Assembly: GCA_963575745.1 (NCBI GenBank)
Contig: CAUYUJ010017920.1
Coordinates: forward strand, 1 to 64,000
Direction: 5' to 3'
Origin: Prorocentrum cordatum
Taxonomy: Eukaryota > Sar > Dinophyceae > Prorocentrales > Prorocentraceae
DNA: 64,000 nucleotides
Positions 26,479-60,180 of this stretch are shown one piece after another. The position numbers and the translations under genes are program-made. Below the pieces are notes generated by a model. It was not told the DNA's origin and did not search any database. It saw nothing but the letters and a program-made list of their open reading frames with translations. The stretch's first letter is position 1, and every line of letters begins with the position of its first letter.

Positions 26479-26674
26479 AGGGGAACGAACAATGACATAA
26501 ACATACAATCTCGGAGGTCCGCGCGGAATTCTCGGATCCACGCTGGGGCCCCCTGGCGACGCCTCCGGCGCCGCCCCTGGCGCGCTCCGCGCGCCAGTGA
26601 GGGGGGTCCAGCGCGAATCCAAGAAATCCGTGCGGACCTGGGGATTTCTATGTTGGTGTCAGTTTTAGTTCCCC
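26479..26674 (-). mobile_element. Introner-like/MITE element, family 1, copy 2
   Basis: 196 bp. It begins AGGGGAACGAACAATGACAT and ends TGTCAGTTTTAGTTCCCC. TIR sequence TCGGAGGTCCGCGCGGA pairs with TCCGTGCGGACCTGGGGA. The double-palindrome core is in the same orientation as copy 1. GTAT occurs just outside both ends (26473-26476 and 26677-26680), a possible 4-bp target duplication if the ends are taken two bases further out. Confidence 0.85.
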
Positions 26675-27862: not shown

Positions 27863-28000
27863 AGAAGAAGAACAAGCGCCATAAACACAATCAACTTTTG
27901 GCGCTCCGCGCAGATTTCTTGGATCTGCGCTGGACCCCCCTCCCTGGCGCGCGGAGCGCGCCAGGGGCGGCGCCGGAGGCGCCGCCGGGGGGGCCATGTG
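27863..28000 (+). mobile_element. Introner-like/MITE element, family 1, copy 3 (3' truncated)
   Basis: Its left end, AGAAGAAGAACAAGCGCCAT then AACTTTTGGCGCTCCGCGCA, matches the ends of the copy inside the glycosyltransferase gene rather than copies 1 and 2, so this is a second subfamily. The core palindromes are complete (GGCGCGCGGAGCGCGCC, GGCGGCGCCGGAGGCGCCGC). Homology fades about 10-20 bp after the core. Confidence 0.75.
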
Positions 28001-28009
28001 CGGATTCGT

Positions 28010-28395: not shown

Positions 28396-28860
28396 CTCGT
28401 CTGTGAGTGAATTGCGAGGAAGTCTCAAGCGGGAGCCCCCTGCCTATGGGGCCCGCGGATCATGATACTAATCCGAGCGGGTCATCCAATTCCTGTAACT
28501 GTCGCAACTTTTGGGCTCTCGCGCTGCCGGAACGCCATTCCCAGGCCACAGTTGTGAGTGAATTGCGAGGAAGTCTCAAGCGGGAGCCCCCTCCCTATGG
28601 GGCCCGCGGATCATGTTACTAATCCGAGCGGGTCATCCAATTCCTGTAACTGTCCCCACTTTTGGGCTCTCGCGCTGCCAGAACGCCATTCCCAGGCCAC
28701 ATTTGTGAGTGAATTGCGAGGAAATCTCAAGCGGGAGCCCCCTCCCTGTGGGGCCCGCGGATCATGTTACTAATCCGAGCGGGTCATCAAAGTCCTGTAA
28801 CTGTCGCCACTTTTGGGCTCTCGCGCTTCCAGAACGCCATTCCCAGGCCACATTTTGAAT
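28395..28860 (-). repeat. ~151-bp satellite, three copies, reverse orientation
   Basis: GTGAGTGAATTGCGAGGAAG starts copies at about 28402, 28553 and 28704. Each runs through GCGGGAGCCCCCT, GGGCCCGCGGATCATG and CCGAGCGGGTCATCCAA. On minus this is the same satellite as at 45.3-47.5 and 55.2-57.5 kb. Here about 60 bp of each monomer (GGCCTGGGAATGGCG, CGCTGCCAGAACGCC) is a different sequence, related to the adjacent 72-bp repeat. Confidence 0.85.
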
Positions 28861-30603: not shown

Positions 30604-33255
30604 GAATCAGTTGGACTGGGGCTCCCGTCCAGACCTCAGTCGTCCCAACGCCGTCCTAGCCAGACGGGCCGCCGACCGAGGACGGGAGGCGAAGGGACGG
30701 CAGGGACGACAGAGGTCGTGGACCTGTCTTCTGGCATAGGCCCCGCAGACTCTGCAGAAGACGATCAGCCCCCTCCCATTAGCCTCAACGCCAGACCCCC
30801 GACCCCGATCACCGCGCACAACCCAGAGCTTATGGGAGGGGTGGGCGATCGCTGCGGGCCGAGGCATCCCTGGGCAGGGAGTCGAAACAATCCTAGATCG
30901 GAGCCCCTTCCGAACCCCGCAGATTTTACACCCCCAGGCCCGTCCAAACCTCAAAAGCGAGTGCCCGCCCGCGCCCGAAACAAGGACGACCGAATCGCGG
31001 GACGGCCTGGGGCGGGGGAGGGGGCTCCGATCGGGCCAGCCTAGGCCCGCCAACATGTTCAAGACCGCTCCGTGATGGACGGCGATCGACTCCGCGGCAC
31101 ATGTGGCCGCTCTCACCGTGCTCGCCCTCGCCATCACGGCGTCGAAAAACGGGTGCAGCTTGGCACCCTCCTTGGCCTTGCTGTCCGCGCATTTGTTGCC
31201 GCGGTGCCAGGCCCAGGGCGTGTCTGCCAGCGCTGCCGCGGCCCAGCTGGTGTGGGCTCGGAACCACTGTAGGCTGAATGCCTCAGGCCCCAAGTCACTG
31301 ATGTGCCTCCAGGCCTCCCTCCACAGGTCGGCGTTGAGCGACTCTGGCCCCAGACACCAGTCCTCTCCTCTCTCGAAGTCCTCCACCAGCCGCAGGTAGT
31401 CCGTGACCACGTCCAGCTGGGGGCCCTTCTCCCTGAGCACCCGCGCCAGCGCGTAGAGCTCGGCGTAGCCGCTCTCCTGAACGGGCCCTGGGACACACCC
31501 GAACATCCCGCCCGTGATGGCGCCGTCGGCCTCCACCATGACGCAGGACCACCCGCTCCTGGTGAGCTCCCTGACCTCTGGGGCCATCGCCGAGCCGTCG
31601 ATGCAGACGGTGCCGCAGGCTAGCCCCCCGATGAGTGCTCCTCCTCGGCGGCAGACCTCCTGCTCTGCAGGCCTCGGGGCCCTCTCCAGGCCAAGGCTGA
31701 CCAGGCACCTGACTAGCCCGATGTCGCCGTCTGGGGCTGCAGCGCCCGCTCTCCTGACCTGCTCCATGTCCAAGGCCGCCGCGACGCCTCTGGTGCCGTC
31801 GCATCCGAACAGGCGGTGCTTCTGCGTCCCAGGCTCCGCGCTGCACAGCCTGCACACGGGGCTGAGAACCGCCCGTTCGCGATACAGATCAGCTTCTGTC
31901 ACCAGGCCGCCGCAAACCAGCGCCTCGAACAGCGCCACCTGCTCGCCGTCACCTCGCCTGCGCAGCGCCTCGACCGCCTGCTGGGTGACCTGGATGGTCG
32001 GCGGCCCGCCGAGCGCTCCTCCCAGGTGCTCGCTGTGCAGTTTCATCATCAGCGAGCGCTGGATCCCCGCCTCGATGAACTGCCTCATCCTCCTGGGGCT
32101 GTAGACCTTCAGGTCGAGCTGCTCCCCTGCGTCCGTGACCCAGCGTCGCCAGCCAGACGCAGCGGCTGGCTCCCACCCTATCCTGCGGAGGGTGAGTTTG
32201 ACTGCGTCGGCTGGCCCTCGCACCTGGCCCCAGGACTCTGGCTGCGCCGCGCTGAAGGCCTTCTCGAGGCCCCCGTCGCTGCGCAGGCCGAGGTAGACCG
32301 CCTTGGCCCACGCCTCCAGTGGCAGGCTGTTGGCCGCGAAGACGGGGTCCGCCTTCCAGCCCTGGTCTGGCAGCAGTGCGAACTGCAGCGTTCTGCTCTT
32401 GCTGCCCACGGCCCCCGCCAACACCTGGCCGTTGACCGCCCTGGCCCTCTCGAGCATCGCCGCCGGAACCCCGACGACCCGAGCTCCGTGGAGGACCGAG
32501 GCCAGCCCGCCACTCCTGAAGATCCTGCCCAGCTTGACGCCTGCCCGCCTGAGCGCCATGTATCGTGACGAGCGGACTGCCAGCCTAGCCATGCGGCTCC
32601 TCAGCACTGACCACGACGCCCTGGGCTTCATGCCGAAGTCGACGCCCAGGTTCTTGACCGCCCGCCGCAGCCTGAAATCCCAGCGCCGCAGGCGGTGGGC
32701 CGCGCGCCGTCCTGCACTCTCGTCGCTGCTCACGATGTTGCCCTTCGTCAAGGACACCTTGAGCCCCAGCGCCTCTAGCCTCTGGCAGAGGTCTCTAGTC
32801 GCGCCGAAGGCCGTGAACTCCACGTCCTTGAGCTTCCCGCAGACGGCCAGCGTGATGTCGTCGACGACCACGTAGGCCCGCAGCGACGTCCACTGGGCCA
32901 CGACCGCGTCCATCGCGGCGAGGAGCACGACCCTCAGTAGCGTTGTGGCGTACCCGCAGCCCGCCACGATCGAACTCCCGACCCTGATCGCGTCCGTCTT
33001 CCAGCGGCTGAGGCTGAGCCTCCTCGGGCCGCCGTAGCTGCGGAGGACCAGCTTCAGCCCGCGCAGCCTGAAGCCGTGGCGGCGAGCAGCGGCGACCAGC
33101 CCCTCGTGAGTGACCCGCTCGTAGGCCTTCGAGAGGTCCGTCATGGTCGACATGGAGTGCTGGTCCATCGCCGCCGCCACGCTGGCATCGTGGGCCTGGA
33201 GCCAGACCGCATGCCTCCTCCGCCTCCTTTGCTCTTCGAGCACAGAGGGGGGCAC
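30604..33255 (-). CDS. Non-LTR retrotransposon polyprotein (RT, CCHC, RNase H, Zn finger)
   Basis: 882 codons without interruption, TGA at 30604-30606. RT motif A is TDLSKAYERV (Asp40) and the catalytic box is AYVVVDDITL (Asp132-Asp133). A CCHC knuckle follows (C468-x2-C471-x8-H480-x4-C485). RNase H has CIDGS (Asp553), YAEL (Glu599), VVTDYL (Asp619), FRAHTS (His668) and NKCADSK (Asp691). A CxxC zinc finger (C776/C779) and a second Cys cluster lie near the C-terminus. The polyprotein would copy element RNA into DNA by target-primed reverse transcription (family knowledge). No endonuclease domain and no clear RT finger region precede motif A, so the element is probably 5' truncated, although the frame stays open some way upstream. 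The listed start is the first plausible codon, not a proven one. It is the best-preserved transposon ORF here. Confidence 0.85.
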
Positions 33256-34916: not shown

Positions 34917-35285
34917 GTCGGTCGGAAAAGTAAGTCAGAACATGAAGCAGGAAGGCGGATCAAGTAGATTGGGCTTAGACCCTCCAAAAGAATACCCAAA
35001 CACAGTAAACACATATCGATTCTGAAGTAGATTTCGGAAAACGAGCGATGACATGAACATAAAAAACTCGGAGGTCCGCGCGGATTTCTCAGATCGGCGC
35101 TGGACCGCCCTCCTGGGCGCGCGGAGCGCGCCAGGGGCGGCGCCGTCAGGAGGTTCCAGCGCGGATCCGAGAAATCCGCGCGGACCTCCGAGTTTTTACG
35201 TTTATGTCATCTTTCGTTCCCCTGAGATTAGGATCTCGGAATCCAGAAATACCTGCCTTCAACGACTGGGGTGCATGATGAAACA
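34917..35285 (+). repeat. Dispersed repeat family 5, copy 3, split by an insertion
   Basis: The left part (34917-35034) has GTCGGAAAAGTAAGTCAG, AACATGAAGCAGGAAGGCG, AAGTAGATTGGGCTTAG and CTGAAGTAGATT. The right part (35225-35285) resumes with AGATTAGGATCTCGGAATCC and AGAAATACCTGCC. Copies at 12798 and 26706 lack the intervening 190 bp. Confidence 0.85.
35035..35224 (+). mobile_element. Introner-like/MITE element, family 1, copy 5, with AGATT target duplication
   Basis: 190 bp. The arms CTCGGAGGTCCGCGCGGATT and ATCCGCGCGGACCTCCGAG are exact inverse complements, extended by GATGACAT-AAC / GTTTATGTCAT. The core has GGCGCGCGGAGCGCGCC but only a remnant of the second palindrome. AGATT lies immediately outside both ends (35030-35034, 35225-35229). 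Confidence 0.9.
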
Positions 35286-35861
35286 ATTTTTCATATCTCC
35301 CCGCGTCATGCGAGACACATCCTCTGGCCGTGGACCCTGTCGTGACCACCCCGTGCCGCGTGAGCTTCAATCCTCTCGAGGATCGGAGCACTCCAAACGC
35401 TGCCGGCACCTCCCGCGGAAGACTTGGCCCGAATTCCGACGCTGACAAGCCGGTTGGTCGCCACGGGCGTCCTCGCTGAGAGTTCACAGGGCTGTCTGGT
35501 AAGAGACCACGTGTTCGACTGGTCGACTGCCGACAGCAAACTCTCATCCCAAATCCGCTCATGTATCACCCATCTCTCTCCAAACCTCTCTCCACTCCAC
35601 CCCCCCTGCCCTCCCTGCCGCCCTCACTCCCTCCCGTCCTCGCTTCCGTCCTCAATCCAGCATCCTTACTCCACCTGCTACTTCCCATATGATACTCCCT
35701 CTTCCCTCCGCCTCGTCCTGGAATTCCACATCTGTCGATACTCCCTCCTCCCTCCGCCTCGTCATCCGATTCTACCTCTTCCTCCACCCTCTACTCCTCC
35801 TCCTCCTCGTCCTCCTACTCTTGCTCCTGCTTCTTCTCCTCCTCCTCGTCCTCCTCATCAT
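35286..35861. other. Intergenic sequence grading into pyrimidine-rich DNA
   Basis: 35570-35850 is C/T-rich with several CTCCCTC stretches. No gene. Confidence 0.5.
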
Positions 35862-37663
<1,802 letters not shown>

Positions 37664-38581
37664 GGGCTGCTCCACCTCCTCATCCTCTTCCTGCTCCGCT
37701 TCCCCTGCTCCTCCTCCTCCCTCCTCCTCCTCCTTCTCGTCCTCCTCCCCCTCATACTTCCTATCCCACACCTCGCCCATCCCCAAGCCTGAAGCCATCT
37801 GCTTGGGCGTCACTGTTGGCGCGGGCCTTGCGGCAGCGCCGGCACGGGCCGGACCGGAAAGGGCCAGACTGGGACGGGGAGGAAAGCTGCTGGGGCGCGC
37901 GCGGGCAATACAACCGCGGAAAAAGGACATCTGGATCTGAATTGTTCAATCCCTCTGAGCTCCTCCGACGATGGGGGAAGACGATGAATTGCCCATACCG
38001 GGAGCGAGAGCCTCGCAGAGAGGGTGCCGAAGGCGACACCGCGAGACGCCCCGACGGGCCTTCAGTGTGCCAAGTCCGGGTCCAGAAGCCGATGGGGCAA
38101 ACAGGCAACGGCCTGGTCGTCGCCCGTCCGTCCGACCGCCGTCCGTCCGTCACCCGTAACCCGTTGCCCGCCGATCCGTCGCCCGCCGTCCGTCTTCCGT
38201 CGTCCGCCGTCCGTCGCCGTCAACCGTCCTCGTTCGCCGTCGATCGGCGGCGGCGCCGCCGCCGTCGTCCGTGCCTCCGGCGGCCGCTCCTCGCCGTTAG
38301 ACTGTTTGAGACACAAGCGGCTCCGAGCAGGCCCAGGAGGGTGCGCAAGGCAGCCGAAGGGCGGGCGGACGGAGCGAGCCGAGCGCGGTGCGGCTGGCGA
38401 GTGGCCACACGCTGTTTGTCCGAGCTTGACGGCGTTGAGCAAGCTGGTTCTCCTGGACGGCATCCGACGAGCTCTTTGGGTGCCCATCAGCCTGGCCGCC
38501 CTCTCGCAGCGGAAGAAGAGCCGCGCGGCGGCGGGAAGTCGGCCGCACCGCATTCGAGCAGTCTCCACAAAGAAATATCTT
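37664..38581. other. Spacer with (CCGTC)n minisatellite at 38130-38240
   Basis: Pyrimidine-rich to 37790, then mixed sequence. 38130-38240 is made of CCGTCCGTC, CCGCCGTCC and CGTCACCCGTAACCCG variants. Long overlapping ORFs on both strands lack domains. This is the 3' flank of the glycosyltransferase gene. Confidence 0.5.
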
Positions 38582-40357
38582 CGACTAGACGCACGTGTTC
38601 ATCATCTTGACCCATGCCTCCTTCTTGCTAGTGTGGGACAAGTTGCACAGCCTGATAATTTCGGCACAATTGGTTGGGCGCCATCCAGGGGGTATCTTGT
38701 GCCTCTGAGGGCAACTCGCTTGACCTAGATGCCTGTGAGGAACCAAGCTCTCTATCTTCAGACTGTTTGGGGCAGCAAGACGAGGCGGAAACAACATTTC
38801 GATCACATCCTGCTCGGTGTTCGTGTAAGGAATGTACTCGCCAAGCTCTGCCCTCGCTTTCAATTCCTCAAACACTTTAGATGATGGAGTGATGAGCATC
38901 ATGTGAGTATTCAGTCCAGCATGGTTATATCGCTTCTCGTGCGTTGCCAAAAATTCAGCGTCCTGGGGAAGCTTGTCCACATAGCTGTCAGGATTATCCG
39001 AAAACACCACGTCGGTGTCGATAAACAAGATTCGCTCGTAATCCAATTTTGACCAGGCCAAAAATTTCAGATAGGTGGCCCAGCCATCTCTCCTGTCGAG
39101 GATGTCGCCGAGCCTGCCACCCTGCACGTGCAGGTGACCCCACCACCGCTGCTGATCCTCTGCCTGCTGTTTGGTAAACACCGGTTTGTAGATGCTCTTC
39201 ATCCTGGGTATCTCAGCAGTGTGGTTGTCGACGATCGGGTCGGACGAAAGGAGGGTAAAAGGGAGACTGGCGAACCAGCTCATGTGATTCGCTGATTGTA
39301 CAGGCGCCAATACATCGAGGAAGGCGCCGCCGGGCCGCGGAGCCGACACTAGCTGCATGCAGTAGAGTTCGCAACCCCCCTGTCTAAAAGAGCTCAGGGA
39401 CACACAAGTAAATAAACACACATCACAGGATTCACCATATGTCTTATATTTTCTGGATTTCCGTCCTCCCCCTCCACTTCCCATATTTCCCAAAAGTTTC
39501 TTGGGAATCGTCGTTAAATTGTGTTTCCCTCTTGACTCTCGGCCGACCCGAGATTATCCATCCGAATCTCTTCATGAGCTCCAGGACAGATTCGGTGTTC
39601 CCAGAGCCGAAGCTGCCGTCGTCCACGTAGTTTTCCAGCCCAGCAAAGATGAGGTGGTACTCCATCTTGGAGCCGTAGCACTCCGCCGAACATCTCGTCA
39701 ACAGCGCGTTGAGCATCAAATTTGCCTTCTTGTACGTGTCCTTCTGCGCGTCGGTGAGCACGGCGTACACGGCCTTCTTCAGAAGAAGAAGACACGGCAT
39801 ATACATTAACTGTTGGCCTCCGCACGGATTTCTTGTATCTGCGCTGGACCCCCCTCCACAGCGCGCGGAGCGCGCCAGGGGCGGCGCCAGAGGCGCCGCC
39901 AGGGAGCCCCAGCGCGGATGCAAGAAATCCGCACGGAGCGCCAAAAGTTAAGGCTTGTGGCGTTTTCTCTTCTTCGATTCTTCTTCCTCCGCGGCGGCTT
40001 GCCGGGGCCGGGAAGAGAGAACCTCCGGTTGCCAGGGTCACCAGTTCGCGCGTCGGCCACGTCAGCGCCCTCGTCGGGCCACTGCCCCACGCCCGGTCCG
40101 ACGCCCTCTGCCTGTGACGGCGTTGCTGGGGCCGCCGGGGGGCCGGGCGGCTGGTCGCATGGCTCCTCCCGAGAGGACAGCTCCGGGCTCCGCATGAGGA
40201 GGGACTGGAGGGTCCACTGCAGCGCCGCGCCCAGAAGCAGCATGCCGCATGACTGCAGCCTGCACGCCACCATAGCGCCCCTTGCGGCCAAGCCGTGGGC
40301 CAAGACGGCTACGCAAGGGAGAGGGCAGAAGGCACTTCGCCCCGTCATACGATGCAT
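38582..40357 (-). CDS. Family 8 (glycogenin-like) glycosyltransferase, type II membrane protein, three exons
   Basis: The model runs on the minus strand. Exon 1 is 40273-39980 (or from an in-frame ATG at 40357), exon 2 is 39773-39478, exon 3 is 39383-38582 with TAG at 38582-38584. They join in frame to 463 residues (491 from the upstream Met). Exon 1 has a hydrophobic segment CGMLLLGAALQWTLQSLLM after a short basic start, as in Golgi-type signal anchors, then a Pro-rich stem. Exon 2 opens the fold with AVYAVLTDAQKDTYKKANLM and MEYHLIFAG. Exon 3 has the DxD metal/nucleotide-sugar motif (RILFIDTDVVFSDNPD), NHAGLNTHMMLITPS and NTEQDVIEMLF, all standard for GT8. Known GT8 enzymes transfer sugars from UDP-sugar donors; donor and acceptor here are unknown. 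A 200-bp TIR element separates exons 1 and 2. This is the only gene with host-type features in the window. Confidence 0.75.
39384..39477 (-). other. Canonical GT-AG intron in the glycosyltransferase gene
   Basis: 94 nt, donor GGAA|GTGGAGG and acceptor CTCTTTTAG|ACAGG on minus, with a pyrimidine-rich end. Phase 2 on the left plus one base on the right restores the reading frame (TFGKYGK to QGGCELYCMQ). Reading through the region in exon 2's frame reaches a stop at about 39444. Confidence 0.65.
39780..39979 (-). mobile_element. Introner-like/MITE element inside the glycosyltransferase gene, family 1, copy 6
   Basis: 200 bp between two copies of AAGAAG (39774-39779 and 39980-39985). On minus it starts AATCGAAGAAGAGAAAACGC and ends GTGTCTTCTTCTTCTG. 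The arms include CTTTTGGCGCTCCGTGCGGA and TCCGTGCGGAGGCCAACAG, around the same two core palindromes as other copies. It is not a multiple of 3 long and brings a stop codon into the exon 1 frame, so the gene needs it spliced out or is broken. No clear GT donor sits at the edge; dinoflagellates also use GC and GA donors (established), so the exact junction is unresolved. Confidence 0.85.
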
Positions 40358-40977
40358 CCCCCCTCATCACCAGACCCCGAGCTCCAAAACGCCCCCGAGA
40401 TTTCCCCCAGGGGCACCCAGGCGCCCAGAAACGACGGAATCCCCCCGTTTGCGAGACCGTTTCAGCGACGGCCAGGGAAATATGCTGGTCAGCCGAACGT
40501 CGACCAAAACTTGGGCCTACGCTTAGCCAGATGGGCAGATCATCAATGGGCAATGGCCAGCGGTGACTCGCTGGCCCGAAGCGTTCGATGGTATGCTGGT
40601 CGACCAAGACGCGGTCATCGTCTACAGCTGCCGATCGGCTTCTGGACAAAAGCCCTGCCACAGCATGATCACACGCAAGTATTCAGAGTTGAGCATATGT
40701 CTACAATCTGTCTGCCTACAAGCTGGACCAAACGCTGCACTCGAGGGCGACGATCGAGGCGGGCAATACACATAGGCCGAAAACGCTCCTGCATGCGGCA
40801 TTTTCGTGTCGTGACGACCGCAGCGTTCGTTTCTGATACCGCGTGGATCGTTCAACCTGGAACGATCGGCGGCTTCTCGATCGCCAAATCGTTCCACGCT
40901 GGACGATTCTGCAACCCTGGCGGTGTTTAACCTTGACAGCCCGCGGCCGCTGGGTCGACTCGACGCGAAACTGGTGG
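40358..40977. other. Upstream region of the glycosyltransferase gene
   Basis: No TATA-like or other promoter motif can be supported. Dinoflagellate promoters are poorly defined. ATCGTTC/GAACGAT-type short inverted motifs occur at 40848-40910. Confidence 0.4.
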
Positions 40978-41095
40978 GAACCAAAGGTACCGATACCGCT
41001 AACTCCCCAGACCTCTCCCGGGGTGCGTTCTGACGAGAATTTCGAGGCGAATCCAGCGGTGCCGACGAGGGCCTCCCGGGAGGCCCCCAAAAAGG
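40978..41095 (+). repeat. Dispersed repeat family 3, copy 3
   Basis: GGAACCAAAGGTACCGATAC, CAGACCTCTCCCGGGGTGCG and CGAATCCAGCGGTGCCGACG. Good match to 13968-14090 and to the inverse of 12187-12302. Confidence 0.8.
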
Positions 41096-45309: not shown

Positions 45310-45900
45310 GAGCGCATAGGGAGGGGGGCTCCCGCCTGAGACTTCCTCACAATTCACTCACAGACGAGGCTCACGGCCTGATACTTCCTCGAGATTAAAG
45401 CGTCGGGAACACTAACGTGACGACAGTTACAAAGTTGAGGATGACCCGCTCGGATTAAAAACATGAAGTGCGGGCCCCATAGGGACGGGGCTCCCGCCTG
45501 AGACTTCCTCACAATTCACTCACACACGAGGTCCCAGCAAGATACTTCCCCCATGTTCAGGCCTCAAGAGCTCAAAAGTGACGACTGTTACAGGGTTGAG
45601 AATGACCCGCTTGGGTAAAAAAAACATGATATGCGGGCCCCATAGGGAGGGGGCTCCCGCCTGAGACTTCCTCACAATTCCCTCACAGACGAAACTCCCG
45701 CCTCATACTTCCCCCCTATTGAGGCCTTGGGAACCCAAAAGTGACGACAGTCCATAGGGAGGGGGCTCCCGCCTGAGACTTCCTAACAGTTCACTCACAG
45801 ACGGGGTTGCCCGCCTGATACTTCCCCCATATTCAAGCATCGGGAGCTCCAAAGTGACGACAGTTAAAGGGTTGAGGATGACCCGCTCGGATCAAAAACA
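45310..45900 (+). repeat. ~160-bp satellite, left array part 1
   Basis: About four monomers: GCGGGCCCCATAGGGA-GGGG, CTCCCGCCTGAGACTTCCTC, ACAATTCACTCACAGACGAG, AAAGTGACGACAGTTACAGG and GATGACCCGCTCGGAT. Same strand as the right-hand array at 55.2-57.5 kb. ORFs such as VTGSKMTRSDYQ are satellite artefacts. Confidence 0.9.
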
Positions 45901-46814: not shown

Positions 46815-47535
46815 AGAGGCGCGGGCCCCATAGGGAGGGGGCTCCCGCATGGGCCGTCATCACAGCCCACTCACAGACGAGGTTCCCGCCTGACGCTTCC
46901 CCCATATTCTGACCCAGGAACCCATAAGTGACGACAGTTACAGGTTCGAAGATGACCCGCTCGGATTACCAACGTGAAGTGCGGGCCCAACAGGGACGGG
47001 GTTCCCGCCTGAGACTTCCTCACAGCTCACTCACAGACGAAGTTCCCGCCCGATACCTCCCCCATATTCAGGCCTCAGCGTCGACAGTTACAGATTCGAT
47101 GATGACCCGCTCGGGTTACCAACATGAAGTGCGGGCCCCAGAGGGAAGGGGCTCCCGCCCCAGACTTCCTCACAGTTCACTCACAGACGAGGCTCCCACC
47201 GAATGCTTCCTTCCCCCTATATTCAAGCCTCACGAGACCAAAAGTGACGACGGTTACAGGGTCGAGGATGACCTGCTCGGATTACCAACATGAAGTGCGG
47301 GCCCCATAGGGAGGGGGGTTCCCGCCTGAGATTCCTCACAGTTCACTCACAGACGAGGTTCACGGCCTGATACTTCCTCCATATTAAAGCCTCGGGACCC
47401 CAACGCGACGACAGTTACAGGGTTGAGGACGACCCGCTCGGATTAAAAACATGAAGTGCGGGCCCCATAGGGACGGGGCTCCCGCCTGAGACTTCCTCAC
47501 AATTCAGTCACAGACGAGGCTCCCGCTTGATGGTG
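46815..47535 (+). repeat. ~160-bp satellite, left array part 2
   Basis: GGGCCCCATAGGGA-type starts near 46821, 46984, 47133, 47288 and 47460. They are separated by about 150-170 bp and end at a TGATGA-rich unit. Confidence 0.9.
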
Positions 47536-48013: not shown

Positions 48014-49510
48014 TCACCGCCCCCCTGGTCGGCGCAAGCAAATGGACGTTCCTCGGCGCCCTCGCCGCCCGGGCAACGCGAGGTCTCGCGCGGGCGGCCG
48101 CAGGATCAGCATGTTCCGCACGCGCGTGGCGGGGGGGAACATGACGTAGAGGTGCAGCCGACACTGCTCGTCCGACATGCCCGTGCGACCAGCGTCCTCA
48201 CCCCTGGCGCAGTCGATGGCGACGCCCTTGCGCAGCGTCTGACCCTGCGACAGCGCGGAGGTCAGATGGGACACGCGCGCCAGGGTGAACCCCGAGCGGC
48301 GCACGCCGTGCGGCCCCGAGCTCTGCCACGTGAGCTCCTGCTCGCTGGGCCCGAACATGAGCAAGCTCCTCGCCCGCGCCTCGGCCGCGCCGTCGTCGTC
48401 AGCGCCGTTGGCGCTCTGCAGCAGCACCTCGGCGACCTCCTTGTAGATCGGGGACTCCTTGAAGCCGTGGACCTGCATCCCGATCCCCTGCGGTAGGTAG
48501 CGGGGGCGAAAAAGCTGTCCCGGCGCGCACTCCTCGCAGTCTCGCTCGTCGCCTGCGTGAAACTCGAAGGACACGACGGTGGCCCGTTGCTCCTGCGCGA
48601 GCACACACACTTCTTCTTCAGCTCTTCCTGCACGGCCGTGAACCGAACCTCCATGCTGACGCGTGCTGGTAAGACGCCGTGGATGTCCCCCGTCTTGTGC
48701 ATGTTCGGGACGTTCCGGAGGCGGCGGCCTGCGTCTGGGTCACCTTGAACCGTGCCGCACTCGTCTGCGGCCTGCAGGAAAACGAGGGGCGCGCCCAGAC
48801 GCCGCGCGTCACGACGAGCACGCGCGTTGATCCACCTCGCGAGCGTCTCCCAGTAGATGCCCATGCCGAAGCCGAGCCGACTGTTCTCGCGCTGGTGCCG
48901 AGGATCCAGGACGCCGCGGTTGTCCGAGGCCAACGTGTTTTCCCAGGCAGACCAGACCTCCGGCAGGAAGCGCTCGCCCTCGCGCATGCAGCCCAAGAAC
49001 GCGATAAGAGGGCCCCCGGGCTCGACGCGCTTCGTGCCCTTCAGCTCGAAGACGCAGGGGATGCGAGAGAAGGCGCTGATGGCGCGCTGAATCTCCACCG
49101 TCGGCGGCTCCGCGTACTTGAAGGACCCGTCGCCCTGGCGCTCGTTCACGTGCGTCAGGAGTTCGATGCTACCAGTGAACTTCAGCTGTAGGAAGTCGCC
49201 GAGGTGCAACACGATGGGGACGCGCCCGAAGTTGCGATGCGGCCTCTTGTAGGTGGACTCCTGCACGACACGCGTGTCACTGCGCCCGTGGCAGGCGCGA
49301 AAATCCAGCGCGTTGTACAGAGCAGCCGCCACCATGCTCACCTCCTCGATGACCAGAACGCGAACGTGCTCCCACAACCACTTCAGCCTCTTCTACATGA
49401 CCCCCGGCCTCATCTTCGCGTCGATGTACTTCTGGACTCGCAGGGTACAGGCATTGTGCAGCGCTCTGGCCTTCACTGTCTCCGCGGAGATGTTCTTCGC
49501 CTGCGCGTTC
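48014..49510 (-). pseudogene. Helitron PIF1-like helicase, C-terminal part
   Basis: Two frames continue the helicase. The first has HVRVLVIEEVSMVAAALYNA (Walker B, Glu for the usual Asp in DE), LGDFLQLKFTG and TKRVEPGGPLIAFLGCMREG. The second (48610-48014) has VSHLTSALSQGQTLRKGVAI and CRLHLYVMFPPATRVRNMLI, the typical C-terminal PIF1 boxes. Breaks: a 1-base shift near 49510, an in-frame TAG at 49393-49395 before Walker B, and another shift near 48605. Confidence 0.8.
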
Positions 49511-52081
49511 GAAGGCCACGACCATCACGGCGCCCTTGTCCTGCGCCGACGAGGGCCACGCATACTCCGCCACTGGGAAAACGACCTTCTGCACCGCGTG
49601 CGTATTCCCCGAGCCGCCCTGGCCCAGCAGGAGCAAGTGCGTCGCGTTTCTTTCGCCCCAGGACTTCTTCTGCACGTCGTCCTCCCAGGCGTCGTCGCAG
49701 GCCTTCGCGAACTTGGCGACGAAGAGCGTCTGGCCCCGCGTGAGTCTCTCGTTCTCCGGCAACCCAGCGACCAGGGCGGCTATGTACGCGCTGGGCGTTG
49801 AGTACACGCCGCGGGCAAAACTGGCCGCAGCGGGGTCGTCAGCGCCCGCGTCATCCTCGTCGCGATTGCCCTGGAGGCGGTCGTCATGCAGGTTTGCCCA
49901 GGCGCGTCTCTCCTCGCGCGCTGCGGTCACCAGCGGTCGGTATCTGGCCGCGGCCGCAGGAGCGGTCGCGGCCTCCGTCGGCCCGGGAGCACCCGCGCCC
50001 TCGCGGGCCGCCTCGGACATGCACGGGAGCGCGAGGAGCTCCTTGGCAAACCTCGTGAGGCGCTTGCGGTGCGCGAAGTTCAACGCGTCCGCCACGTCCT
50101 GCCCCCCGTCGATGCCCCAGGTCGGAACCGGCTGGAAGTGCGCTCGGACCGCCGAGGGGGACGCGCCCGGGTGTTCCACGCCCTCGCCCGCCACGGCGCC
50201 CTCGTCCTGACCGGCGCCTCCACCGGTGGTCGCCTTGAGGCGCGCGCTCTGCGCGGCCGCGTCGCTCCGGCACTGCCAGGGCTTCATCCCCTCGCGTGCC
50301 AAGGCGATTCCCTCGAGGTTTGGCGCCACCTGCATGGCCACCATGGAGGCGCAGCGGCGCACCGTCGCCCTGGGTTTCTCTCTGTCGGGGCAAGGGGCGG
50401 GGCCCAGAGAGTCGCCCTCCCCGCCCTCGCCCTCCGCCCGCGCCTGGTGCAGCGCGAAGCATTCCTCCTGCACCTCCTGCGCCTCCCAGATCGAGGGCCA
50501 CTCGTGCCGCGCGAGGAAACGGGCCGCGGCGACGCGGGCCTCCTCGTCCGCCTGGGCCTCGAAGCGCGCCCAGGCTCGCGCGAAACAAGTTGAACCGCGC
50601 GCATTCATGTCAAGGGGCGCGCCAGGGGCCTCCATCATGGGCGCGAACGCCTGCAGCATGCGCTCGTCCTCCGGCGTCTTCGAGTTCCCCGCGTCCAACA
50701 GCCCCAGGAGCAACTGCTTGAAAAGACAGGCAGTCTCGCAGTCTTGGCTCAGCGTCGGCACGGTGAAGCCCTCGAAGAGGGGCGCGCGGAGCTCGGGGTC
50801 CAGGGGCTGTTTGCGGGTTGCGCACAGGGCGCAGCGCGGCGCAAAGTCGAAGTCCAGGTGCCGCGCGCGGGCCTTGTCTCTCCACAGGCCGTCGGGCTTC
50901 TCGCATCGGTAGACCCACATTGCATGCACCTGCGAACTCATGTGCTTGAGGACCGGGTCGCCGCCGCGGCGCAGCCAGTCGCCCAGAGTGCTCGTGGCCC
51001 TCACGACGCAGAAGCCGCCCCCCGTCTTCGGGGCCCCCTCGCTCTCGCAGCCCATGTCCTGCATGAACTTCGCCAGAAACGACGCCGCCTGGCGATGCTC
51101 GGGCGCGTCGCGCGCCGCCTTGGTCGCGACGTCGTGCTCGTCGGCCGCCAGGGTGTCGGGGAAGCGCCGGCCTTCCGGACTCACGCGCACCGCCTGCCCG
51201 CCGCTCTCCTTTTCCTCGCGCCGCCCCTCGAGCGTGCACGGGTCGACGCCGCGCCCGAGGCACTGCACCAGGGCGCGACCCCCGTCCTGCGCGGTCTTGC
51301 GTCGGAGAGAGCGCCCGCGCTCGCGTCGCCACGCCTCCGCCGCCGAGAAGACGCCTTTCTTGATGGAGACCGTCCAGCAGCAGTGGGACGCGTAGGCGAG
51401 GTGGCCATGAAAGATCGGGAACAGCATCTCTGGCCCGCTCTTCCAGTAGCATCGGCGGTACGACGCGGACAGATTCTTCGCGAGATCCAGCGTCTCCCCG
51501 AATTGCATTTGCCCCCGAGCGCTCTCCAGTCGGCGGCGGACATACTCTTCTCGGGGTCCTCTCCGCGCTGCGGCAGCTCCAGCTTCATATTGTCCTGCTG
51601 CGCCTGTCGCTGCGCCTGCAGCCGCTCCAGGCCGCGCCGCATCTCCACGAGGACGCCCTCCATGCTGGGGCGCTGGTTCGTCGTGTAGGAGTTGATGTAG
51701 AAGCCCGTGTTCAGGCCGTCGCTGAGCGCGGCCTGGGCGCCCAGTTCCAGCTGGTCTGCGGAGGCAATCGCGGCGCCCGCGTCCTCCGCGCCCTCGCTCT
51801 CCGCGTCCTCCGTCAGGCACTGCCGCAAAATGTCCCGCCACTCCTCCGGCGAACAGTCGTCCGTCCACGAGAGCGGCCACCCTGGGGCCTCCGGGCGGCT
51901 CACGCATGCGTCGGCACCGCCCAGCTCGCATACGCCCATGTGCCCCGGCTTGGGTTGCGAGCCGACGCGCGGGAACACCTCGCCCACGTCCAACCAAGCT
52001 TTGGGGTCGCTGACTCGTCGGAGGCCCTGCGCGCCCAGGTTGAAGCGCCCCGCCGCGGCGCCGGCGCAGTTGGTAATACAC
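49511..52081 (-). pseudogene. Helitron middle region and Walker A of the helicase
   Basis: An open frame of 934 codons. The first part, upstream of about 51560, is out of frame with real coding. From there it reads EEYVRRRLESARGQMQF, KGVFSAAEAWRRE and a long linker, then NERLTRGQTLFVAKFAKACD and ATHLLLLGQGGSGNTHAVQK. The last block is Walker A, but the invariant Lys of GKT is Asn (codon AAT at 49604-49606). That should abolish ATP hydrolysis in the family. It is shifted relative to the Rep part near 51540. Confidence 0.8.
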
Positions 52082-54321
52082 TCAGACGGGCGGGGTTGGA
52101 AGTGCAACAGACGACCCTGCATGCCGCGCGCCGAGGACCGCACCGCAAACATGGCGTTCCGCAGAGGCCCCCCTTGCCTGCGCCTGCGCCAATCCGCGAG
52201 CGCGACGATGCAGTGGAAGCCGCGGCGGCAGATCTTCGCGGTCTTGTCGCCCGAGTACCTGCAGCAGCTCTCCCCGCGCACGCGCGCCATCGTCTCTTCG
52301 GCGAGCTCCCGGACGTCCTTCGAGAAGAGGCGCTCCCAGACCTCAGGACTCTCTTCCGTTCCTGGCGGGGGCGGCGACGGCGGCGCCTCCTCGCCGGCGG
52401 CGAGCGTCGCCAGGCCGACTCCTGGCTGCCGCGACTGAGCCACGGGCGCGTCCGAGCAGACCGTCGGGACAACCCCGCGGGCCGCTGGCTCGCCCGCGCC
52501 GGCGTCTTGCCGCGCGAGGCCGCGCCGCCGGCACGCGGGGCATGCCCCCACGGCAAAAGCATCGATGGGCATGCCGTATGGAGACGCCCGCGGCGGCGCC
52601 TTCTCCCCCGGCGCCAGCTCGCGGCCTGTGGCGCCCCGCAACGGCAGATCGGGCCGGAGCCAGGAGCCCCGGTCCTCGGTCTCCAGGAAGGTCTCCTGGT
52701 CCTCAGCCAGCTCCGCGCCCGCCTGCTTCTCTTCGCGGAGCGCGCCCAGCTCGCTGCCCCCGTCGAAGCGCGACTGGTCTCGTTCGATGACAGAGAACGG
52801 CAGCGGGTCCAGGCGCTGGCCCGCGCGCCCGAAACGCCGCGGCAACACCTCCACGGAGCTCTGGCAAGTGCTCTCCACGGCCACGACGCACGCTTTCATC
52901 CACTTGCCCAGGCGCTCTCGGGAAGCAGCAGGATGGCGTCGGAGCACGCGCGCGAGCTGGCGCGTCGGGAGGGCGCACAACCACACCAGGATGCGTGGAT
53001 GGAGCGATCCCCACCCTTGCGCCTCGATCTCTCCGCGGAAAGCTCACGCGGGCCCAGAGATCCCTGGAGCGGTCGAGGACGCCGCCACGCCGTCGGTGCA
53101 CAAATCCCAGGAGCAGCGTTTCCTGGGAGGAACGCCGCGCCAGCGGCCGCCCACGCACTCGGGGCGGACGCCGAGGACGCGGGCGAAGAAGAGGCGCATG
53201 ATGAGCTCGAAACATACGGTCTGGCCGACCGGGTCCTGGGCGACGCGCCGCAGCATGTCTCGGTACTTTGGGGTGACGTCGCTGCGCAGGCCTGGAATGC
53301 CCCGGTCGTCGAGCGGGATCTCCTGGCCCTCCACCCTGACGGACAGCGGCTGCTTCTTGTCCGCTATGTTCGGGGTGGCGAAGATCAAGGGGCACCCACA
53401 GAACGCCATGTAGGCAACCCCCTCGTGGCGGCAGAGGCGCCGATGTCCGTCGGTGCCGACGACGTCCGCGACGGCCATCTGCATGATGTTCAGGGCGTCC
53501 CGTACCACGTTGGGTACGTCGGCGTTGCTTGCCAGAGCCGCCACGCCGCCGCCGCCCGCGTGAACGCGGGCGGCCGCAGCCAGGGCATCCGGGGTGAGGT
53601 GCCGCACTTTCTCGGCCCACTTCATGCCTCCGTTTTTCAGGAAAGCGAAGGCGGACTGGCGGCGCTCCGTCAAGAAGTGCAGCGTGGCGAACATGCGCAG
53701 CGACACCCAATCGGCCGCGAACCGGTTGACCTCGGGGTCGTCGTCGTTCTCCCGCACGCGGTGCGGCTTCTCTTCGTCGGTGTCCAGAATGCACTCCATC
53801 TCCTCGCGCATGCACAGGCACGTGATCCATTCGTGCGCGAGTAACTGCGGGTGGGTCCCCGTTCGTTTCGGGCCCAGGTGGCCGGCGTCGCCGCAGCGCC
53901 ACAGGCTCGGGCGCGCCTGCGCCCGCACCTCCCACTCGAACAGCGACAGCAGGGGCGCAGTGCCGCGCGGCAGCTCGAGGTTCGACATGGCGGCCTCGGC
54001 CCCCGCCCGTCGAGGACCGAACGGTTCGTCAAGCGCGGCGCGCGGGATGTCCTCTTGCAGCCGCAGCTCCCGTTTCGGAGGCGACATGCGGGGAGCGCGG
54101 TTTGTAACGGACTCGCAGAGCTGCAAGACGCGCCCCCTGCCCGCCTCGTCCAGCAGCGCGCAGTGGCGTGCTCTGTCTCCTTGGCCACGGAGCGGCGCGC
54201 GGTCGCGTCCAGTTCCTCCAGCGGCTTGATAAGTGCCGTCACCTCCAGAGCCCCAGCCGAGGCGGCCGGGGCCGGGGTGTCCTCCTCCCTGAACGCGCTC
54301 ACGTACCGGGACTCCTTGCAC
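51560..54321 (-). pseudogene. Helitron-like N domain and HUH Rep region
   Basis: One frame carries both ORFs here, separated by a single TGA at 53041-53043. Upstream part: LAHEWITCLCMREEMECILD, CGCPLIFATPNIADKK and VSLRMFATLHFLTERR, matching the Helitron-like N-terminal domain. Immediately after the stop comes GEIEAQGWGSLHPRILVW, the Rep catalytic region. The two-His HUH motif is HPR here (Arg codon CGC at 52993-52995, one base from CAC His). Downstream are Cys pairs (GACPACRRRG, CRRGFHCIVAL). Nicking activity is predicted lost. Confidence 0.8.
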
Positions 54322-55229: not shown

Positions 55230-56360
55230 ATCGCTCCTCAAAATTCAAGCCTGAAGACCCCCAAAAGTGACGACAGTCGACAATTACAGGTTGCCGATGA
55301 CCCGCTCGGATTACCAACATGAAATGTGGGCCCCATAGGGAGGAGGCCCCGCCTGAGACTTCCTCGCAATTCACTCACAGACGAGGCTCCAGCCTGAGAC
55401 CCCCTCTATACTCGAGCCTGAGGAGCCCAGAAGTGACGGTTGCAAGTTCTGGATGACCCGCTCGGATTACCAACATGAACTGCGGGCCCCATAGGATGGG
55501 GGCTCGCGCCTGGGACTTCCTCGCAATTCACTCACAGACGAAGCCCCCGCCTGAAACTTCCTCCATACTCAAGCCTGAGGAGCCCAAAAGTGACGACGAG
55601 TTCCCGATGACCCGCCCGGATTACCAACGTGAAATGCGGGCCCTATAGGGAAAAGGGCTCCCGCCGGAGACTTCCTCGCAATTTACTCACAGACGAGGCC
55701 CCCGCCTGAGACTTCCTCCATACTCAAGCCTGAGGAGCCCAAAAGTGACGACAGTTACAGATTTCCGATGACCCGCTCGGATTACCAACATGAAATGCGG
55801 GCCGTATAAAAATGAGGGCTTCCCCCTGAAATTTCCTTGCAATTCACGCACCGACGAGGCTCCCGCCTGAGACTTCCTCCATACTCAAGCCAGAGGAGCT
55901 CAAAAATGACGACGGTTACAAGTTTCCGATGACCCGCTCGAATTAACGAGATGAAGTGCGGGCCCCATAGGGATGGGGGCCCCCGCCTGAGATTTCCTCG
56001 CAATTCACTCACAATCGAGGCTCCCGCCGACGACTTCCTCCATACTCAAACCTGAGGAGCCCAAAAGTGACGACAATTACAAGTTTCCGATGACCCGCTC
56101 GGGTTACCAACATGAACTGCGGGCCCCATAGAGAGGGGGCTCCCGCCTGAGACTTCCTCGCAATTCACTCACAAACGAGGCTGCCGCTTGAGACTTCCTC
56201 TATACTCGAGCCAGGAGGTCAAAAGTGACGACAATTACAAATTCTGGATGACCCGCTCGGATTAGTAACATGATCTGCGGGGCCCATAGGGAGGGGGCCC
56301 CCGCCTGAGACTGCCTCACTATTTACTCACAGACGAGGCTCCCGCTTGAGACATCTTCCA
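55230..56360 (+). repeat. ~160-bp satellite, right array part 1 (seven monomers)
   Basis: GGGCCCCATAG-like starts near 55328, 55483, 55638, 55798, 55959, 56120 and 56278, spaced 155-161 bp. Shared blocks are CTCCCGCCTGAGACTTCCTC, GCAATTCACTCACAGACGAG, AAAAGTGACGAC and ATGACCCGCTCGGATTACCA. Confidence 0.95.
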
Positions 56361-56683
56361 TCGTCAAGATGGGGAGTGAGTGATGACGAAGTGATGGGTG
56401 AATGATGATGATGATGATGATGCTGATGATGATGAGTAAAGGAGTGATGATTATGAATAGAGATTCAGTGTGTGAATGTGACGATGCTGGTGATCATGAA
56501 AGCGTGTGAGTGTGTGATTGCTGGAGATGACGATGCTGATGAATGAAGGAGTGGGTGGGAGTGAGTGATGCGGAGGAGAGAGGGGTGTGGGTGAAGACTG
56601 CGCGGGGTGCCCAGCGAAAACAAGAAGCCCACTTAGGATGCGGGGAACAAGAACCCCACTTTGGATGTGGGGAAAGGTCATGT
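56361..56683 (+). repeat. GAT-rich spacer in the satellite array
   Basis: (GATGAT)n stretches plus AACAAGAACCCCACTTTGGA-TGTGGGGA, a unit also found at about 56928 and, inverted, at 28020-28060. Confidence 0.8.
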
Positions 56684-56939: not shown

Positions 56940-57550
56940 TTGGGATGTGGGGAATGAAATGCGGGCCCCATAGGGAGGGGGTCCCCGCCTGAGACTTCAT
57001 CATAGTTTACCATAGTTTACTCACGTCTCCCCGCCGGATCCTTCCTCTATATTAAAGCCTCGGGAGCCCTAAAGTGACGACAATTTCACGGTTGAGGATG
57101 ACCCGCTCTGATTAAAAACATGAGGTGCGGGCCCCATAGGGAGGGGGCTCCCGCCTGAGACTTCCTCGCAGATCAGTCACAGACGAGGCTCCCCGCCTAA
57201 TACTTCCCCTATATTCAGGCTTCGGGAGCCCCAAAGTGACGACGGTTACACGGTTGGGGATGACCCGTTCGAATTACCAACATGAAGTGCGGGCCCCACA
57301 GGGAGGGGGCTCCCCCCTAAGACTTCCTCGCAGTTCACTTACACACGAGGCCCCCCGCCTGATACTTCCCCTATATTCACGCCTCGGGAGTCCCAAAGTG
57401 ACGACAGTTACAGGGTTGAGAATGACCCGCTCGGATTAAAAACATGAAGTGTGGGCCCGGGCCCCATAGGGAGGAGGGCCCCCGCCTGAGACGTCCTCGC
57501 AATTCACTCACAGACGAGGCTTCCGCCTGATACTTCCCCCATATTCAAGC
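56940..57550 (+). repeat. ~164-bp satellite, right array part 2 (four monomers)
   Basis: Starts near 56962, 57128, 57292 and 57458. These monomers carry TTGAGGATGACCCGCTC like the left array, and differ from part 1, which mostly has TTCCGATGACCCGCTC. Confidence 0.9.
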
Positions 57551-57964: not shown

Positions 57965-58770
57965 TCACTAGGGTTGGGAAGGGAGGGGTCTTGAGTTGTA
58001 TCCGAACGTGGCGACGCAAGCGGCAGCGAGCGCTCGAACTATACAGTGCGCGAGCTCAGGCGGGCAGGCGGCCGCTGGACGGGCGCGGGCGCTTCCTTCG
58101 AGCTGGAAATGAGGGAGGCCTGTCCGCGAGCACCGTCCTTTCTGACCACGGCATTTTCTGCGCAGATTCTGAAGGTCGTCAACTGCTACGCGACAGAACA
58201 TCAGGCGGGTTGGCTTCTTACATAGGGCTCTGAATTGGCACTGGTCTAATTCAACTAAACTGACATGCGGCAGGTGGGCTAAAGCTTGGATCTCTGCGGC
58301 GCGCCACAGACGAGAGGTGAGCGGGTGCTCGAGAACGGCAAGGATCTTGAGCCGATGGAAAAAAGCAAATAATCCTATGGCGGCGTGGGCAATCTGATTG
58401 CCTACTTTGACCTTTTCTCGGTCTGTGGCGCTGAGCAGCTGTCTGGGCAACCCCCAGGGCACATCCGGGGACCGGATCTCTGCTGTCCGATCCCGCGCGA
58501 TTGAAAAGGTTCGGCACGAAGGGGCCAAAGCTGCTGCCAAGATTAGGCCCCGACGGGCGTCGCGTCGGATTGCCCGAAGGACCTTCGGGTCAACAAGATT
58601 CTGCCAGACTGGATCATGGGCTACATCCCAACTGCGTGTCCTGAAGCCTAGTTTATCGCCTGCACGCGAGACGCACTGGCTCCCGGCAAAAGAGCCCGCT
58701 ACATACCGGCCTCTGAGGCCAAAACGCTGCGCGGCGAGGCGTCTCTCGCGACAGCCGCGGGAGGTCCGCC
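57965..58770 (-). pseudogene. Methyltransferase-like domain at the C-terminal end of the retroelement
   Basis: About 265 codons to TAG at 57965-57967. Motifs in order: VAGSFAGSQCVSRAGD (AdoMet-binding-like, 58668-58710), RSWDVAHDP, ALAPSCRTFSIARDR (58493-58530; resembles the PPC-x-FS catalytic loop of cytosine-5 methyltransferases with its Cys kept), KVGNQIAHAAI, VLEHPLTSRLW (ENP-like, 58304-58335) and DQCQFRALCKKPTRL. The last block resembles the Q-R region. The assignment rests on motif order and is uncertain. The domain is open but shifted relative to the recombinase frame at 58771. Confidence 0.5.
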
Positions 58771-60180
58771 TTAGCTTGGCACGAGCGACTGCCAGGTCCG
58801 CATCCGCATCTCCTCTAGGGCGCGCGAGAGTCTGCTGGCGTCGATGATCGCGCCTGAGCGGCGAAGGTGGCACAGCGTCAGCCTGTCGACCCCGTCCTCG
58901 GCCGCCGCCAGCTGCACCGCCTTTGAAAGCTCTAGGTACGCGAAAGGCCACAGCATCGGCCGGTCTCCGCTCCCTCCGGGCTCGGGGAATAGAGGACCTG
59001 GCCCCTGGAAGTAGCTCGAGTCCAGGAGGCGCCCCTCGTCGTAGCGATTTGTTTTGCTCGGTCTTCCCTCTTCCTCGGGGTGAGTCGGAAGGCTCCAGCT
59101 GCCCACTGTTGCACGCGACGGTGGGGCCAGGGCGCACCTTCGAGCTGCCACCAGGGAAGAGGACCTGGAACAAGCGGAGAGGCCCACCGCTAAGAACAGA
59201 GCCATGAGCGGGAGGCCCTTGTCCGCCAGCAGCCACACCCCCGGCGGCTGCACGGCGAACGGCAGTGCTCGGCGGGTCCGCGAGGGCGCCCGTCGTCTCC
59301 ACGCCTCCAATGCTTGCCACGTCCGCGGCGGGGCCCCCCCGCCCCGCTGGCCGAAAGCTGGGCGCCGGTCCACCCGGGCAGTTCCAGTCTGGTCGCCCAG
59401 GCTGATCTGCTCCCCAGACAGGTACATCGCGTTGAAGTAGTCGCACGCCCAGCAGTCCACGGCCTCGTTCGTGCTCCTCACGAGCTTGTCGTTGGTCGGG
59501 TCGGCATGCGAGTAAGAACGATCGAGATACTGGGCGTAGCGCTCCCTCGCCCGGCGGGTCACCGCCAGCAACGTGGGCCCCCCGACAACGGCCTGCATGA
59601 TCATGTCCGTGTGGAGGGCCGCTTGGCGTTGGCGCCGGGAGTCCTGGAGGCGGCGAGATCTCCTCGAAGCCGCCGTCGCATGGTTCACCACGATGTCGGA
59701 CCCGTTCGACTCGCCTTCTCCCTCGGCGCCCGCCTCGTCGTCGCCAGCGGAGGCCGCGGGAGCGAGGTCCTCGAGCGCCACAGGAGGCGACGCCGGCGGC
59801 TGGCAGGGGCGGCGCTCCAAGCGTGTCCTGGTTGGTCGGGCGCCGTGGACCCCCGTCGGCACGCCGAGGCGGGCTCTGGGGCCACGTGCCTCCGTCGCTC
59901 TCTGGGGCCCCGTCAGCACTCTCGCCCTCGCCCTCGCCGTCAGCGGAGCACTCGGGCAAGGCGGCGGGCGGGCGCCAGGTCTCGGCCGAACACGTAGCGG
60001 TCCTGGAGAGATCGCCCGCACTGGGGCCCACGTCGGCTGCAGCGCCCGAGCACACATCCGTCGGGACAGACTCCTCGGGCACGGAAGCGAGGGAGGCCTG
60101 AACATAGTTTGAGCCAATATGGCTACGGAGAGCAGAGAGAGAGGAAGGGGACGAGATCCCAACCTGCTGATCCAAGACAT
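58771..60180 (-). pseudogene. Tyrosine recombinase of the DIRS-like element
   Basis: After a low-complexity Ala/Arg/Pro stretch, real coding resumes at HTDMIMQAVVGGPTLLAVT and REAVDCWACDYFNAMYL-like sequence. KGLPLMALFLAVGLSACSRS holds the first-Arg box, RLTLCHLRRSGA the H-x2-R box, and MRMRTWQSLVP the end of the domain. The nucleophilic Tyr is not seen where expected; the frame stops at TAA (58768-58770). The shifted frame continues AKLRRTSRG, so Tyr may have been lost. Confidence 0.65.

Follow-up and report, generated by a model that had tools for sequence, protein, structure and literature searches.

Inverted-repeat insertions as candidate introns with non-canonical borders in a glycosyltransferase-like gene of Prorocentrum cordatum

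A glycosyltransferase-like gene of the dinoflagellate Prorocentrum cordatum is interrupted by two inverted-repeat insertions. In the best reading of the data, both are introner-type introns that would be removed exactly or nearly so, at least some at non-canonical borders. For the first insertion (element 1), we put at roughly 70% the probability that it is an introner-type, non-autonomous inverted-repeat transposon removed as an intron, with exact or near-exact non-canonical removal the likeliest route. This verdict rests on comparative sequence and makes a strong prediction for cDNA. Introners explain genomic intron gain, and those described mostly recruit ordinary splice sites. If our reading is true, target sequence does not limit intron gain in a dinoflagellate whose spliceosome is ordinary, and annotation that demands GT, GC or GA donors misses or breaks real genes.

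The gene lies in a stretch of 64,000 nt (the window) with a GC content of 61.5%. The published assembly of this species comprises 4.15 Gb in 22,724 scaffolds with a mean GC of 59.7% (PMC10666404); the assembly searched here holds 4.13 Gb in 21,875 contigs.

A GT8-like gene with two insertions

The gene model was derived by comparison with P0001, the protein of a relative (248 aa, from a 908-bp contig that is either cDNA or genomic). Its parts are as follows.

39980..40273, minus strand: exon 1, signal anchor and linker, 98 codons (MVACRLQ...PPRRKK); open frame, with a similar N-terminus and linker in P0001
39777..39979, minus strand: predicted intron 1 under exact excision, 203 nt, AA...AG; removal restores RRKKKAVY (GRKKKAVF in P0001)
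39552..39776, minus strand: exon 2, 75 codons opening the GT8-like domain (KAVYAVLTDAQ...RFGWII); open frame, matched by P0001
39230..39551, minus strand: predicted intron 2, 322 nt, TC...TC; from the P0001 comparison and junction analysis
38585..39229, minus strand: exon 3, remainder of the GT8-like domain with a DTD motif, 214 codons plus stop (DNHTAEIPRMK...MMNTCV); weak Glyco_transf_8 match

The joined product of this model (98 + 75 + 214 = 387 codons, two insertions) was used as a protein query, of which residues 99–380 were scored. P0001 showed 93% identity across 54% of that scored part and 85% across the whole alignment. It spans a similar signal anchor and linker (SPGRKKKAVFAVL) and continues through RFGWIIDNHTADIPRMK in one reading frame. 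Across the position of element 1 it reads ...GRKKKAVF, an empty site with KKK at the junction, and at the position of element 2, also empty, FGWII joins DN directly. Since P0001 is contiguous over both insertion sites, exons 1–3 form one gene. A paralogue on contig C11647 is open across the element 2 region and lacks that element. P0001 was the best match, and no transcript of the window gene itself was seen in the searched set, which perhaps excludes records from this genome. Within the assembly, exon 2 matched only its own place and one 45% paralogue at E <= 0.001, so no intact near-copy was seen.

The first-pass annotation of this locus had proposed that clean removal of a terminal-inverted-repeat element restores the frame of a split glycosyltransferase gene. 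The flanking open reading frames do join in frame; the unit removed is 203 nt, not 206, and the junction encodes KKK (...RRKKKAVY), as in P0001, and not KK. A downstream 94-nt GT-AG intron and a 463-residue product, proposed at the same time, have to be given up. The "exon" flanking that intron is repeat sequence missing from P0001 and C11647; element 2 had been misread as coding, and a protein of 387 aa is predicted in its place.

The joined protein missed the gathering score of Pfam family PF01501 (16.4 bits, where 24.3 is required), which was matched at E <= 0.01 by 4 of the 10 aligned proteins. Because PF01501 scores below the cut-off, the domain is named GT8-like only. The linker is variable.

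Two element families and other repeats of the window

The insertions and their putative target duplications were placed as follows.

39978..39982, minus strand: left 5-bp target duplication of element 1, AAGAA; from the consensus family edge
39780..39977, minus strand: element 1, 198-bp inverted-repeat (MITE-like) element, TCGAAGAAG...CTTCTTCTG; from family matches, alignment and an end-to-end hairpin
39775..39779, minus strand: right 5-bp target duplication of element 1, AAGAA; from the family alignment
39235..39551, minus strand: element 2, 317 bp with 16-bp inverted ends (TCGGGTCGGCCGAGAG/CTTTCGTCCGACCCGA); parts recur, absent from P0001 and C11647
39230..39234, minus strand: TCGTC, putative right target duplication of element 2 in decayed form (TAATC on the left); from the exact II|DN junction of P0001

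Element 1 belongs to an abundant family. Of 4085 first-look candidates in the genome, 40 were scored: the window copy itself plus 39 further places with 84–88% identity. Two of the 39 (L025 and L026) do not differ in their flanks and represent a single locus entered twice. Edges were taken from an alignment of the 39 copies and the window with their flanks, 19 of them in a separate alignment. The consensus edges, TCGAAG.../...CTTCT(A/G), correspond to TCGAAGAAG and CTTCTTCTA and are bordered by a 5-bp target duplication; in the window copy the final A of CTTCTTCTA is replaced by G. Identical 5-mers abut the consensus edges in 10 of the 40 copies, against about 0.04 expected by chance (our own arithmetic). 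These include the window copy, whose match was taken by eye from printed flanks.

The AAGAAG copies described in the first-pass annotation are present on the minus strand at 39985–39980 and 39779–39774. Between them lies a long inverted repeat, with 140 of 197 columns self-complementary. Folded end to end, element 1 forms a hairpin of -127.6 kcal/mol (z -10.8) that none of 200 shuffles equalled. It thus has many similar copies in one genome, terminal inverted repeats and a target duplication, as introners of the DNA-transposon type do. The copy has diverged from the family consensus, with 21 of 197 sites differing and one gap. Nine of these substitutions and the gap are each common to at most 3 of the 39 copies, which are best matches and bias sharing upward; element 1 is therefore unlikely to be fresh.

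Element 2 sits between FGWII and DNHTAE, and its 16-bp inverted ends match at 87.5%. The exact II|DN junction of P0001 places the five nucleotides 39230–39234 inside intron 2. These match the left-hand pentamer at three of five positions, which by itself is insignificant. The fold of element 2 is no better than that of shuffles (z -1.25; 9 of 100 equal), which weakens a pure hairpin model.

An insertion in a CPSase gene (C20643 A) matches element 2 in its ends and over a 69-bp core (72%), and is the shorter of the two. As a DNA query, this insert had 39 other places scored (75–78%) of 1304 candidates. Eight of the 39 were examined: the 5-bp duplication is exact in six, carries one mismatch in L100 and is lacking in L104. 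The six exact duplications end in AT, in the orientation of the alignment, and contain no GG, so exact excision in this group would usually be non-canonical.

Partial copies of the element 1 family (78–87% identical) also occur in the window at 26518–26636, 27863–28005, 5740–5857 and 35075–35184, and a scan of 38500–41000 gave no Rfam match. An array of TCA-like triplets of about 1.8 kb (35855–37663; 72% matches) has a strong GC skew and an Asp-rich ORF of 631 aa on its minus strand. Dispersed short arrays with units of 151–163 bp lie at 45315–45751, 46821–47524, 55278–56368, 56960–57550 and 28402–28855; one has a 327-bp period, and by eye their consensus sequences are related, one in reverse orientation. 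Long minus-strand ORFs at 30607–33255, 49277–54321 and 57968–61366 resemble, by eye, proteins of mobile elements (reverse transcriptase-like, helicase-like with GQGGSGNTHAVQKVV, and recombinase-like).

Related elements in conserved genes and their borders

The first-pass annotation had suggested a search for other genes with this element at intron positions, and such genes were found. Relatives of element 1, scored by blastn, break up survey genes chosen for convenience (CPSase, aconitase B and GroEL), and copies of the family do the same in DUF1800 and Neuralized genes. At most of these places the G|GN...AG|G splice sites come from the duplicated target. The CPSase gene on C14530 carries an insertion that matches element 1 at 75% identity along 166 bp, with GA-AG ends and the duplication AGGAC (exact removal, CAG|GA...AAG|GAC). 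An intronless paralogue on C114, 94–97% identical, provides its empty site at the DNA level. Another CPSase gene (C15471) is interrupted by a relative with GC-AG ends. The second interruption of aconitase B on C19778 (GA-AG) is 85% identical to element 1, with the duplication AAGGA (AAG|GA...AAG|GAG), and a GroEL gene (C14525) has a GA-AG interruption with partial matches of 69–71%. Family copies in the DUF1800 and Neuralized genes have GT-AG ends from the duplications GGTTC and GAGGT, respectively. Pfam scanning of copy flanks (10 of 27 selected open flanks, drawn from 167 of at least 60 aa) matched 2 of the 10. Copies thus occur at intron positions and are absent from relatives, as in introners, with empty-site pairs in CPSase (C14530 and C114, DNA), aconitase B (C19778 and C18295) and the window gene with P0001.

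Aconitase B on C19778 has only two interruptions within its matched 860 residues and looks like a retrocopy. The gene also exists in intron-rich copies with kilobase introns on C18295 and C13664, whereas the copy on C19778 (L035/L036) is nearly uninterrupted. An older GC-AG first intron of CPSase on C14530 (L088) contains a 49-bp piece of element 1 (80% identical), so elements land within introns also. The first interruption of GroEL on C14525 (L097) is a 158-nt GA-AG intron without a match to element 1; a 14-bp repeat, TTCCAGGAGGGCAC, spans both of its junctions, and it looks as if it was gained by local tandem duplication. The CPSase copy on C11336 (L090) has an in-frame TAA and a dN/dS of 0.32, above that of the other four copies compared, and is likely a decaying copy.

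Fifteen of 21 tabulated junctions were canonical, of the form G|G[T/C/A]...AG|G, so that both splice sites can come from a target duplication. All 15 have G at -1. The 21 were self-chosen, not randomly sampled, and wherever the cut could be placed at several positions a few bases apart, the canonical one was taken. From 14 CPSase gaps, seven entered the table, and seven that did not resolve were left out (L089 B and C, L091 C, L092 A and D, L090 A, and L093 A); in L091 C, 22 extra bases at the left edge allow several readings. The six exceptions are given below.

Window element 1: AA-AG if exact
L019, a copy of the element 1 family at the same AAGAA target: AA-AG; frames open on both sides
GroEL, C19140, interruption 3: AT-AG, or GA-AG if one residue is added; 70% identical to element 1 across 178 columns
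Window element 2: TC-TC if exact
CPSase, C20643 A: TC-CT if exact
Aconitase B, C19778, interruption 1: AG lacking at the 3' end of every exact reading; only piecewise matches to element 1

No recognised protein family was found for L019 by Pfam scan. Canonical in-frame alternatives were enumerated for the six exceptions, with introns of at least 40 nt, no more than 25 added residues and none lost. Element 1 has 14 such options, the least disruptive of which adds NRRR and has A at -1. The smallest for element 2 adds 15 residues, those for L019 at least 13, and those for aconitase B interruption 1 at least 14, inside FPIGISFPAG. CPSase C20643 A has none within the 25-residue limit. The first-pass observation that element 1 has no GT donor at its edge was right for GT, and the GA and GC donors normal in such genomes likewise yield no exact in-frame junction there. 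Neither element 1 (AA-AG) nor element 2 (TC-TC) has, at its exact junction, the GT, GC or GA donor plus AG acceptor of a canonical dinoflagellate intron.

The aconitase B motif FP[IMLV]G[IV]SFPAGSG is conserved in every one of 59 inspected relatives, out of a list of 120. Between C19778 and C18295 the dN/dS of aconitase B is 0.07 (0.013/0.185; 268 codons), and between C20643 and C114 that of CPSase is 0.153 (655 codons, ends trimmed). Both values span the time since the paralogues diverged, including that before the insertions, and both genes have other copies. No near-100% match was found for aconitase B, the best being 91%, in a searched set that perhaps excludes records from this genome. 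Its first interruption on C19778 folds end to end into a hairpin (z -6.7). An ancestral intron position was considered for this interruption and rejected: the nearest intron of C18295 lies three codons upstream, within the Arg codon before FPI.

A search of the genome for U1 snRNA gave 35 matches, 14 over the cut-off, while 0 of 14 control genomes matched. U1 is present, so its loss is not the cause of the non-canonical borders. The U1 snRNA-like genes occur several per contig, often about 5 kb apart (C20935, C17597, C9786 and C11806).

Proposed removal, rival explanations and known systems

We propose that element 1 inserted into purine-rich linker codons of the GT8-like gene, duplicating the 5-bp target AAGAA, and that it would leave the transcript as an intron. 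Where a target contains GG[T/C/A], its two copies would give the donor G|GN and the acceptor AG|G, and ordinary dinoflagellate splicing would work. AAGAA contains no GG, and the exact junction would be AAG|AA...AAG|AA. A donor with A at +1 is poor for ordinary spliceosomes. The 200-nt hairpin may hold the ends of element 1 together, as proposed for Amoebophrya introners, and element 2 (TC...TC), which lies in this gene too, would have to be handled likewise. The introner side of the first-pass alternative, "introner or very recent disruptive insertion", is supported by the inverted-repeat family, 5-bp duplications, in-frame insertion, an empty-site relative and related elements at intron-like positions. 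Speaking against the proposal, element 1 lies, by eye, between a strong donor, AG|GAAGAAG, and acceptor, GAAGAAG|GCC, at a spacing of 213 nt. Their use would shift the frame and disable the gene.

Either the insertion-bearing genes are broken, or this organism removes insertions at borders without splice signals. More tentatively, we suggest that a dinoflagellate with U1 and ordinary introns also removes signal-less inverted-repeat insertions, with the hairpin and the 5-bp duplication as guides. Almost any exonic insertion would then be tolerated, and the window gene would hold two, from two element families.

Element 1 could also be an ordinary GA-AG introner whose splice sites lie slightly inward of its edge, by a few nucleotides, so that NRRR is added to a variable linker that is basic in any case. 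The donor would be AGA|GAAAAC (39967) and the acceptor CTGAAG|AAG or GAAGAAG|GCC, and codon-adding introners have been published, with +12 bp in Aureococcus (PMC9860276). We nevertheless consider this unlikely. The A at -1 departs from the G of every canonical junction tabulated, and element 2, with its 15 or more added residues, and aconitase B interruption 1 would be left unexplained.

We hold it equally unlikely that both elements are disruptive and the locus a pseudogene or null allele. Such a reading would account for the failure of canonical splicing to restore the exact frame at either element, for the stops met by the exon 1 frame in element 1 and by the exon 2 frame in element 2, and for the unseen transcript. 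However, exons 1–3 all have open frames that align with a relative which looks functional, and comparable insertions lie in aconitase B and CPSase, genes under purifying selection. A very recent disruptive insertion, the other half of the first-pass alternative, fits poorly with a copy that has diverged while 387 codons stay open.

Assembly artefacts or insertions in one haplotype are conceivable in a draft of so many contigs but very improbable. Misassembly would not place family-type edges on both elements and an exact 5-bp duplication on element 1, an argument that does not extend to a one-haplotype insertion. Least probable of all is an exon 1 that belongs to another gene, with transcription of the glycosyltransferase gene starting downstream of element 1, an outcome the first-pass annotation had named as fatal to its model: exon 1 has no Pfam match, but P0001 carries exon 1, linker and GT domain in one frame, and the first GT strand (KAVYAVL), which starts at element 1, would be lost.

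Introners are described from the dinoflagellates Polarella glacialis (PMC11453091) and Symbiodinium microadriaticum, in the latter as short inverted-repeat elements that insert in exons with 4-bp target duplications (PMC9860276). Splice sites taken wholly or partly from the target duplication have also been described (PMC9860276). The window elements resemble these, with 5-bp rather than 4-bp duplications. They differ in that exact excision gives no GT, GC or GA donor, nor an AG acceptor for element 2. For P. cordatum itself, GT, GC and GA donors are reported at 24.7, 51.4 and 23.8%, AGG at 79.7% of acceptors, and introns with inverted ends ("introner elements") as enriched; annotation tools were modified to accept GC and GA besides GT (PMC10666404). 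Other ends, such as those proposed here, go unmentioned in the parts of that report drawn on here. No report of Prorocentrum introns with signal-less borders was found in the literature searched, most subscription papers falling outside its scope, and novelty is unproven.

A further likeness is to the parasitic dinoflagellate Amoebophrya (A25/A120), whose introns have inverted and short direct repeats, hairpins and free terminal dinucleotides. More than 60% are non-canonical, U1 snRNA went undetected and an altered splicing mechanism was proposed (PMC7789003). Element 1 has all four features, as known here from DNA; element 2 shares the inverted ends and free borders, whereas its duplication is decayed and its fold weak. 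Unlike Amoebophrya, P. cordatum has U1, and most of its tabulated junctions are canonical. Euglenids and diplonemids, which belong to another eukaryotic lineage, likewise have nonconventional introns with variable borders, whose ends are brought together by RNA structure (PMC4770533, PMC6221363); the likeness is one of description.
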